Origin: Fibrobacter sp. UWEL
GTDB lineage: Bacteria; Fibrobacterota; Fibrobacteria; Fibrobacterales; Fibrobacteraceae
Direction: 5' to 3'
Length of the DNA: 64,000 nucleotides
NCBI RefSeq assembly: GCF_900142535.1
Contig: NZ_FRBE01000003.1
Coordinates: 62,001-126,000, forward strand
Shown here: one piece after another, positions 13,837-64,000 of the stretch
Position numbering within the stretch: the first letter of the stretch is position 1
Layout of the letters: each line of letters opens with the position of its first letter
Program-made: the position numbers and the translations under genes
The notes under the pieces: generated by a model
Told to the model about the DNA's origin: nothing
Databases searched by the model: none
What the model saw: only the letters and a program-made list of their open reading frames with translations

Positions 13837-14661
13837 TTAGATGAACATAATGGTATTCAATTTGGCACGGTACTTCCAAGTCAGCTCGTGCTTGGGGCCT
13901 AGAACGCCGAACAAGGTGAGCATGGCCTTCTTGGCTGCTCCATCATTCCATTCCGGGGCTTCCACGTACAGGTTCAGGAATACCTGGAGGGCTTCCTCGA
14001 ACTGTTCTGCAGCGGCGAGCCCGCAGGCTTCGTGATAGACGATGGCTTCCTTGCCCTGAACATCCTTCTTGGCTGCTTCGGCGTGGAAGTCCAACAGTTC
14101 CAGGAGGGATTTTGCTTCCTTGTACTGGTCGTCGGCTTCATTGAACTTCTTGAGAATTTCCTTTGCCTTTTCGGAGTCGCCGATTCCCAGACTTGCCTTT
14201 GCCCACAGGAGCATCAACTGCTTGTCTTCGGGCTTCTGCTGGAGGGCTTCGTTCAGCATGGGAAGGGCTTCATCGTAATTTTTCTGGGCGATTGCTTCTT
14301 CCAGGGCGGTCATGAAGCGGTTCTCGTCGGAGACGTAGAACTTTTCCAGACGCTTCTTCAGTTCTTCTTCGGGAAGTACACCGGCGATTACATCTGCAAT
14401 CTGGCCCTTGTCCACGATATGAACTTCGGGAACGGAGCGTACGCGGAATGCCTGGATGAGTTGCATGTTGGCACGGTCATCACAGCTGACCACGCCCAAG
14501 GTGAAGTCCATGCTGGTGGAAAGCTGACCCATGAGCTGGGCGTAACCTGCGCAATCGGGATATTCAGCGGAAGAGAAAAGAACGGCTACAGCCCTAGTTT
14601 CGGAAGGCTGGGCGATTTCGGTTTCAAAATTTTCGGAAGTAATCTGTACAACTTTTGCCAT
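13837..14661 (-). CDS. Thioredoxin-fold plus TPR protein, CnoX/YbbN-like
   Basis: 274 aa with an N-terminal thioredoxin fold (1-110) and C-terminal TPR helices (about 118-274, with YDEALPMLNEALQQKPEDKQL typical of YbbN). Proteins of this type are chaperedoxins that protect clients and hand them to GroEL or DnaK. The CXXC site is degenerate: YPDC replaces CGPC, keeping only the second cysteine, so thiol-disulfide oxidoreductase activity is unlikely and holdase or mixed-disulfide roles are favoured. The cis-Pro loop, RVRSVPEVHI, is present. A TATATT box lies 7 nt before the ATG with no SD. Cytosolic, although the gene downstream in the same direction encodes a FISUMP lipoprotein. Confidence 0.82.
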   Translation of the reverse strand: MAKVVQITSENFETEIAQPSETRAVAVLFSSAEYPDCAGYAQLMGQLSTSMDFTLGVVSCDDRANMQLIQAFRVRSVPEVHIVDKGQIADVIAGVLPEEELKKRLEKFYVSDENRFMTALEEAIAQKNYDEALPMLNEALQQKPEDKQLMLLWAKASLGIGDSEKAKEILKKFNEADDQYKEAKSLLELLDFHAEAAKKDVQGKEAIVYHEACGLAAAEQFEEALQVFLNLYVEAPEWNDGAAKKAMLTLFGVLGPKHELTWKYRAKLNTIMFI

Positions 14662-14668
14662 GGCCTGT

Positions 14669-14674
14669 AATATA
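14669..14674 (-). promoter_or_regulatory. -10-like TATATT next to the CnoX-like start
   Basis: The minus-strand TATATT ends 7 nt before the ATG at 14661. Upstream it is directly abutted by the AGGG-type heptamer array. Confidence 0.5.
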
Positions 14675-14708
14675 GTAAATAGGGTCTAGGGTTTAGGGGC
14701 TAGGGCCG
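14674..14708. repeat. Degenerate heptamer array, AGGGNCT type
   Basis: Consecutive 7-mers AGGGTCT, AGGGTTT, AGGGGCT and AGGGCCG run from 14681 to 14708, preceded by the weaker AGTAAAT. The array touches the -10 element of the minus-strand CnoX-like gene. Confidence 0.7.
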
Positions 14709-14780
14709 CACAATGCAGGCGCAGACGCCCCTGGATGTTTCGTCTTTTTTGCACTAGGTAATGTTCATCTCCTGCAATCC

Positions 14781-14843
14781 CTAGTCTCTAATTTCTAGTT
14801 TCTAATCTCTATACCCTATCCCCTGTTCCCTAATCTCTACTCT
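14781..14843. repeat. Degenerate heptamer array, CTANYYY type (9 units)
   Basis: Nine uninterrupted 7-bp units, each starting CTA or CTG followed mostly by pyrimidines (for example CTAGTCT, CTAATTT, CTATCCC, CTACTCT). The array ends 13 bp before the TATATT of the zinc-ribbon gene. Units differ but the 7-bp phase is never broken. Confidence 0.75.
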
Positions 14844-14856
14844 GAAAAAAGTTTCC

Positions 14857-14862
14857 TATATT
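14857..14862 (+). promoter_or_regulatory. -10-like TATATT of the zinc-ribbon operon
   Basis: TATATT ends 7 nt before ATG 14870 with no SD between, which predicts a leaderless transcript. Confidence 0.5.
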
Positions 14863-14869
14863 GAATCCT

Positions 14870-15382
14870 ATGAGTACATGTTCTTTTTGTAAGGCCGAAG
14901 TGACTGAAGTAACCCTGCATCACCTGCAGTTGCGTATTTGCCCTAAGTGCCATTCTGTGTTTTTCCCCTGCGATCAGACCATGGCTTTCCGTGGTGACCT
15001 GACGGATAAGTCCCGCGAACTGTGGCTTGCGGCCTTGAAGCGTATGAATGTGCAGGATCCGGTTTGTGAAAATCCTTGCTGTATCGATCACGGGGAACCT
15101 CTGGTAGACGGAAAACTTCCCGATTATGGCTTTGACGGCAAGGTGACCACCTGCTGCAAGACTTTCCATATGAAACCCTCCCTCTTTATGGAACTGCTCC
15201 AGCGTACTCTGGACAATCCGTTCCAGAATCCGGGCAAGGAAGGCAAACACCACTTCTTCTTCATCAAGTGGTTTGATGCTCTTGTCAATAAGATTATGGG
15301 CGAAAAGATGCCGGACGAGGATCCGCTGGACCTGGTACAGTACAACATTCACCTGAAGAAGTTCATCGAGATAGAAGAATAA
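14870..15382 (+). CDS. Zinc-ribbon protein (TFIIB-type zinc finger), unknown role
   Basis: 170 aa. The N-terminus has a CSFC...CPKC knuckle pair within about 25 residues, as in zf-TFIIB family proteins, followed by FFPCDQTMAFRGD, which resembles the region after such ribbons. Further cysteines (CENPCC, TTCCKTF) suggest a second metal site. The C-terminal half is helical and charged, with HHFFFIKWFDALVNKIMG as an amphipathic stretch. The ATG at 14870 is chosen over the TTG at 14861 because the latter lies in the promoter. Its stop overlaps the next start by 1 nt, and it leads an operon of four genes whose other products are all membrane proteins. Confidence 0.7.
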   Translation: MSTCSFCKAEVTEVTLHHLQLRICPKCHSVFFPCDQTMAFRGDLTDKSRELWLAALKRMNVQDPVCENPCCIDHGEPLVDGKLPDYGFDGKVTTCCKTFHMKPSLFMELLQRTLDNPFQNPGKEGKHHFFFIKWFDALVNKIMGEKMPDEDPLDLVQYNIHLKKFIEIEE

Positions 15383-21248: not shown

Positions 21249-21272
21249 AGCCAAAATGTAACAATAAAAGGA

Positions 21273-21307
21273 ATGAAAAATGAAATGTGAAAGATGAAAA
21301 ATGAAAA
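21273..21307. repeat. Heptamer array, ATGAAAA type (5 units)
   Basis: Five contiguous 7-mers: ATGAAAA, ATGAAAT, GTGAAAG, ATGAAAA, ATGAAAA. The array lies in the divergent murB/primase intergenic region, just upstream of the TATACT of the primase-like gene. Confidence 0.8.
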
Positions 21308-21336
21308 AGCTTTTTGTTATACTTGTGGTACGCAAG

Positions 21337-39999: not shown

Positions 40000-40007
40000 C
40001 AAATATA
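40000..40007 (-). promoter_or_regulatory. -10-like TATATTTG of ffh
   Basis: The minus-strand TATATTTG has a core ending 9 nt before ATG 39992. Four ATGAACA-type heptamers lie 6 bp further upstream. Confidence 0.5.
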
Positions 40008-40013
40008 GGAATT

Positions 40014-40041
40014 AACAATGAACAATGAACAATGAACAATG
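40014..40041. repeat. Perfect heptamer array, 4 x AACAATG
   Basis: Four identical 7-bp units in the ffh/FISUMP intergenic region. In circular phase the unit is ATGAACA, one base from the ATGAAAA unit at 21273-21307. Confidence 0.92.
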
Positions 40042-40151
40042 GGGAATATGAGGAAAAATAACCCCCGATTTTGGATGTGTCGAATTGCATAATCTACATG
40101 CATCATTTACGTTTTTTTTTAGATTTCATGGGGCGTAAGTTAGGAGTCTTT

Positions 40152-63675: not shown

Positions 63676-64000
63676 TTTGCTGGTTGGTCGCCTGTAGTTC
63701 ATCTTTGTTTCGTCGGGTTGATTTGGGGTTTGCCGCGAGTTTGCTGCGGGTTTGCTGTGGGTTTGCCTCGGGTGGGGCTCGGCGGTAACTAGTCCCTTCG
63801 CTCCGCTCCCTGCGCTTCGCTGGCGGCGATGTTTTTTATTGCGAAAAAAGGTAATTCTTATTACGTACAAAATAATTACGAACCTTTATTGTCCTGAGGG
63901 GTTTCTTTAGGGGGCTTTTTCCTGGTTGGCTGTGGTCTGGAAAGTTGGGTTTTTGTATCTTTGTTGCCGAAATTGTCTTTTTTTTCGTGATAGGTAGGTT
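63676..64000. other. Intergenic end of window, no gene found
   Basis: Contains the 11-bp repeat at 63729-63772 and a GC-rich stretch (63786-63830) built from CTTCGCT/CCGCTCC-like pieces. After 63840 the DNA is AT-rich, with a TAATT...AATTA partial palindrome near 63853-63880. No ORF with a credible start is visible. Confidence 0.5.
63729..63772. repeat. 11-bp tandem repeat, 4 units
   Basis: Four contiguous 11-mers: TTTGCCGCGAG, TTTGCTGCGGG, TTTGCTGTGGG, TTTGCCTCGGG. Confidence 0.85.

Follow-up and report, generated by a model that had tools for sequence, protein, structure and literature searches.

Two heptamer arrays between the CnoX-like and zinc-ribbon genes

The window, the whole analysed stretch of 64,000 nucleotides, comes from the genome of Fibrobacter sp. 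UWEL, a 3.53-Mb draft in 62 contigs that is 99.98% complete. It contains a 208-bp gap between two divergent genes, a CnoX-like gene on the minus strand (13837–14661), which encodes a thioredoxin fold and TPR (Pfam PF00085, PF14561 and PF14559), and a cysteine-rich, zinc-ribbon-like gene on the plus strand (14870–15382), for which a Pfam search returned no family. A putative −10 region of the CnoX-like gene, TACTATATT, is located on the minus strand at 14666–14676 and is kept in all sister species. The putative −10 of the zinc-ribbon gene, TATATT at 14858–14863 on the plus strand, lies 6 bp upstream of the ATG at 14870 and is retained in species that have no array. The window also encodes Fib_succ_major proteins and carries a degenerate 11-bp tandem repeat, GGGTTTGCCGC, at 63723–63782.

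Two arrays of 7-mers occupy the gap. The right one (14781–14843, plus strand) consists of nine in-frame heptamers, CTAGTCT, CTAATTT, CTAGTTT, CTAATCT, CTATACC, CTATCCC, CTGTTCC, CTAATCT and CTACTCT, of which seven fit CTANYYY exactly and two have one mismatch. This run of nine, reported already in the original prediction, is a genuine array, as the longest run in 1000 dinucleotide shuffles of the gap was four units, with one mismatch per unit allowed. The left array (14676–14708, minus strand) has three to five degenerate units, CTAGCCC, CTAAACC and CTAGACC, followed by CTATTTA; the latter and CTATATT, which is the −10 region itself, continue the frame into the −10 of the CnoX-like gene. By itself this array is weak (TRF score 38, 84% match). 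On the plus strand it is G-rich and reads TAGGGTC, TAGGGTT, TAGGGGC and TAGGG, and it is thus the CTANYYY unit on the opposite strand. The two arrays, which had been taken for separate ones, therefore form one inverted pair. They are the arms of a single palindromic element of about 170 bp (approximately 14676–14843) with a conserved core.

The core between the arms (14709–14780, plus strand), GGGGCTAGGGCnGCnnGATGCAAGTGC ... GGATGTTTCRTCTTTTTT, is common to other copies in the same genome outside the heptamers. A short hairpin with a T-run, GGATGTTTCGTCTTTTTT (14733–14750, plus strand), is kept in several copies and resembles a terminator in form only.

Period 7 prevails in non-coding DNA

In a lag scan of the whole window, three strong arrays were found at lag 7, as compared to none in ten shuffles, and lags 4–6, 8–10 and 13 gave zero strong arrays. 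The exact 7-bp phase noted before is far above chance, and it extends genome-wide and genus-wide in non-coding DNA. In eight species of the genus (2.06 Mb), arrays in non-coding DNA cluster at lag 7 (104) and its multiples 14 (71) and 21 (39), with 1–8 at each of the remaining lags from 4 to 24; repeats in ORFs showed the expected lags of 3n. The excess of period 7 in intergenic DNA, whose absence would have spoken against the original prediction, is thus present. As described for heptanucleotide repeats, period 7 is over-represented and lies mainly outside coding sequence: 104 lag-7 arrays were non-coding and 34 were in ORFs, some of the latter in over-extended ORFs (21269, 40001). Both of these window arrays (21269–21310 and 40001–40052) are located in gaps upstream of genes, though the mechanical ORF call extends through them. 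The first is of AATGAAA type and separates a murB-like gene from a divergent, primase-like gene with a CHC2 motif. The second comprises four to five AATGAAC units and precedes an ffh-like gene in another divergent gap, where the −10 AAATATAG adjoins the array as it does at the CnoX locus.

The period is shared by many unit families, among them ATGAGTT, TGAGCAA, GTAGGAA, TTAGTCA and GATGATT. Between adjacent units there are 419 transitions and 467 transversions, more transitions than a 1:2 ratio would give. Repeated slippage, which had been proposed for the arrays, is compatible with these data and would be the source of the 7-nt steps, by which the arms probably lengthen, shorten and drift. 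Two explanations through stop codons were set aside. A role of the period in placing stops in all three frames is hard to argue, since arrays that contain stops pass the non-coding filter more easily and certain unit families are stop-free. Seeding of the arrays by the stop codon of the gene itself was rejected, as this codon recurs as the trinucleotide 7 nt further along in 16 of 97 cases, about the 1 in 7 expected by chance.

The arms belong to a dispersed element

Four tandem CTANYYY units, with one mismatch allowed, gave 46 and 13 overlapping matches at about 20 places in the genome, as opposed to 2 and 0 matches of the reversed-pattern control. Several of these places are inverted pairs 60–170 bp apart that flank a related core. 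The cores of the window copy and of four other copies (L012, L025, L029 and L032) align outside the heptamers, with z-scores against shuffles of 6–15 for the window copy and above 10 for several pairs. Using a sequence model of the core, whose match in the window (G000:C3:76696-76790, G000 being the UWEL genome) corresponds to 14696–14790, we counted 8 copies in UWEL, 24 in G011, 36 in G030, 22 in G031 and 2 in G033. The core is absent in 72 of 80 genus members, and three others have a single weak match. This distribution is that of a lineage-restricted dispersed repeat. Named Fibrobacter records carry the same heptamer repeat as well (L097, L115 and L169), and in some places window-type elements are arranged in tandem at a spacing of about 130–150 bp (G030:C75:43840-44433, G011:C51:4191-4569, and L276 in G011). 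The draft of G031 harbours two near full-length CnoX-like genes (L069 on G031:C70, and G031:C3:3539-4360), 91% and 86% identical to the window gene, and may be mixed.

As in MITE-like elements, many copies share sequence beyond the simple repeat (8–36 core copies in four genomes), and three gaps have empty orthologous sites. No clear target-site duplication was seen by eye at the CnoX/zinc-ribbon gap and the gap upstream of the L012 gene; since none was established, we infer insertion as a unit from the copies and the empty sites. The whole element, arms and core, would be copied by some mechanism to other gene junctions in a small Fibrobacter clade. With its short dispersed palindromes and inverted pairs between genes it resembles the REP/BIME palindromes that go with RAYT transposases, but its arms are heptamer arrays and the genome has no RAYT. 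The RAYT family PF01797 (Y1_Tnp), the sole transposase family searched, is absent from UWEL and from the array-rich G013 and G059, which rules out a REP/RAYT origin.

Sister species have empty or differently filled gaps

The CnoX/zinc-ribbon gap was compared across 30 species, each represented by one genome. Arrays do occur in close relatives, as the original prediction required. The shortest form of the gap, found in 10 species, measures 30–41 bp and consists of the back-to-back −10 boxes (AAATATAG ... CTATATT), followed at once by the start codon, so that an array would not fit. Other species carry, between these two boxes, an AACTTAG inverted pair (G004), AACTCCG/AAATCCG (G049, G007), AATGACT (G043), AATGAAC with CTAGCCC (G030), AGTTACT (G015, G054) or TCTCGTC (G054), and in G011 there is a window-type element whose orientation relative to the CnoX-like gene is the opposite one. 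As the −10 boxes and the genes persist without arrays, the arrays are not required there. In many species both boxes lie about 6–10 bp before the starts in a divergent gap of 30–33 bp (L066–L095), which suggests leaderless transcripts for the CnoX-like and zinc-ribbon genes.

Two further gaps behave likewise. The gap in front of the L025 gene is missing in G074, G079, G017 and G041, where the genes next to each other overlap; it holds a window-type element in UWEL, G011 (twice) and G030 and an AATGAAA pair in G032. Upstream of the L012 gene, the gap is 5 bp in G041 and array-free in G033 and G034; it holds a window-type element in UWEL, a GATGATT pair in G030 and arrays of TGAGGTA/TGAGGTC type in G011 and G038. 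In every case these lie immediately behind the stop codon of the upstream gene and ahead of a conserved stretch that precedes the start. At all three gaps the number of units varies between species, each seen in one genome. A second type of filler was also observed, namely GCGAAGC-type hairpins that contain GACCTC/GAGGTC motifs and in many cases lie next to heptamer arms or between them (L081, L088 and L090 in G039, G047 and G055; L290–L291 in G011 and G038).

These comparisons bear on the proposal that the 7-bp phase is selected as a spacing device, to curve the DNA or let a protein bind at the promoters, with three units making about two helical turns. The phase is indeed exact through nine units despite the drift of their sequence, and the array spans the place where a −35 would lie. 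Yet ten species keep both promoters array-free, the arrays that others have in the same place vary freely in length, number and sequence, and the same period is found downstream of stop codons and in convergent gaps, places at which promoter spacing plays no part. The empty orthologous gaps largely refute selection on spacing, which we now regard as very improbable. In sister species the element would have been lost repeatedly or swapped for heptamer elements of another kind. At these promoters it is probably neutral, most likely filler that is tolerated and not a required regulatory part, and it would lack a function.

Strand polarity of the arrays at gene edges

The arrays of Fibrobacter have a fixed polarity, with the G-rich strand running outward from whichever gene edge is closest. 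Scored on the plus strand, 45 of the arrays nearest to a left gene edge are G-skewed and 13 are C-skewed, and at right edges the numbers are 11 and 33 (odds ratio 10.4, p = 1.2e-7; with one array per 600-bp bin, 10.1 and p = 4.6e-6). The polarity appears at both stop and start edges (38:15 and 40:9). When measured by purine content it is clear in tandem-plus, divergent and convergent gaps and unclear in tandem-minus gaps, which should mirror the tandem-plus ones; we read this discrepancy as sampling noise, and it is a weak spot of the rule. A general purine or GC-skew asymmetry of gaps was dismissed as the cause, as array-free gaps show no purine asymmetry and their GC skew is weaker and of opposite sign to that of the arrays.

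All clear inverted pairs (14/14) have the G-rich arm first and the C-rich arm second, as would befit a functional RNA or DNA hairpin under selection, for example a bidirectional hairpin or terminator at transcript ends, whose arms pair in the 7-nt register with G.U pairs. The arms of the 22 loci examined fold into long hairpins (−51.7 kcal/mol for the window, z = −3.7, and below −4 at several others), and the arrays crowd gene ends, in other phyla above all stop codons. Folding in the 7-nt register is, however, expected of any inverted pair. The copy in the window sits between divergent promoters, a place without anything to terminate, the element is missing or of a different kind in sister species, and Rfam covariance models gave no match over 14400–15100 up to E = 5. 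By a hand tally, mismatches between the arms amount to about 31 G.U versus 30 A.C on the sense strand in tandem gaps. As G.U is not preferred over A.C, nothing points to selection for an RNA helix on the sense strand, and this candidate was rejected; single loci are skewed, in both directions relative to the gene strand. Altogether, a selected hairpin seems an unlikely explanation of the element.

Similar arrays recur in many phyla

Four exact CTARTYT units in tandem were found in at least 119 stretches from many phyla, including Vibrionaceae and other Gammaproteobacteria, Bacteroidota, Campylobacterota, Patescibacteria, Chloroflexota, Cyanobacteria, Planctomycetota and Methanosarcina. Within the phylum of Fibrobacter, the matches concentrate in its genus and family. 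In 20 such genomes, which were selected by having a CTARTYT match, the three-unit pattern is often frequent, with up to 185 matches, and the reversed control is absent in most and present in G086, G089, G090, G093 and G095. The CTARTYT arrays of other phyla show the same polarity as those of Fibrobacter (35:12 versus 14:26, p = 2.6e-4). There it resides at stop-codon edges (70:20), and start edges show no bias (27:27).

Such observations could hint at a dedicated process, by a template-copying polymerase, a reverse transcriptase or hairpin transposition through single strands, which writes heptamer arrays at gene edges in a fixed orientation in many bacteria. The polarity is fixed across unrelated units and phyla, CTARTYT recurs in many phyla with few control matches in most genomes, and the same gap is refilled with unrelated units of the same period. 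Against this stands the choice of the cross-phylum genomes for having a match; moreover, no enzyme was identified, and PF01797, the one family searched, is excluded as a requirement. We consider such a process improbable, and give as little weight to the broader idea that many phyla share a process building 7-nt arrays at gene edges, with the G-rich strand outward regardless of unit sequence and gene direction, of which the Fibrobacter element would be one fast-moving product.

Discussion

The reading that we favour, with a probability of about 0.6, is that a palindromic dispersed repeat with slippage-prone arms lies between the back-to-back promoters of the CnoX-like and zinc-ribbon genes, was copied there and lost or replaced elsewhere, and is most likely tolerated filler. 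Slippage in gene gaps together with copying of whole hairpin elements is the most economical account. Simple slippage alone predicts neither the strand polarity nor the recurrence of unit sequences across loci and distant phyla.

Heptanucleotide repeats are reported to be the most abundant class of long repeats in most bacterial genomes (PMC4679880, PMC4692102), and the length of 7 nt has been tied to a possible contact length of DNA polymerase by Mrazek and colleagues, as these two papers cite them. The original prediction knew of no described function for such arrays, and this still stands as to function; arrays of the kind themselves have been described (PMC4679880, PMC4692102). For the Xanthomonas heptamer repeats, GGGAATC or (GGGANTN)n, no function was found (PMC4692102). 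In Fibrobacter the unit is a different one, the arms flank a conserved core in 8–36 copies, sister species show the same gap either empty or filled anew by unrelated heptamers, and the sites include divergent gaps. Degenerate tandem heptanucleotides between genes also occur in cyanobacteria (GGGGAYT in Nostoc; three tandem heptanucleotides in Calothrix PCC 7601; cited in PMC4692102), but their unit sequences differ, and few inverted pairs are reported in Nostoc. The TAACTGA repeats of Beggiatoaceae, Cyanobacteria and Bacteroidetes are likewise intergenic heptamers, patchy across phyla and with array-free gaps in close relatives; unlike those of Fibrobacter, their units are near-invariant and usually lie upstream of starts, and translational control has been proposed for them (PMC4679880). 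The finding belongs to this known, unexplained class of bacterial repeats. What it contributes is a dispersed element with inverted arms, gaps that are emptied and refilled by heptamers unrelated to one another, and a rule of polarity.

Nearly twenty years have passed since heptanucleotide repeats were described as the most common long simple repeats of bacterial genomes. The present results carry a warning that heptamer arrays should not be read as promoter elements. They also make the origin and use of such repeats a testable question, as it is the period and not the sequence that recurs, the same gap is emptied and refilled with unrelated units, and several unit families, as well as arrays of other phyla, have a polarity that is fixed relative to gene edges. 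The genus has more than 80 sequenced species, which range from zero CTANYYY arrays to well over a hundred matches, and is well suited to a comparative-genomic search for a generator of these repeats.
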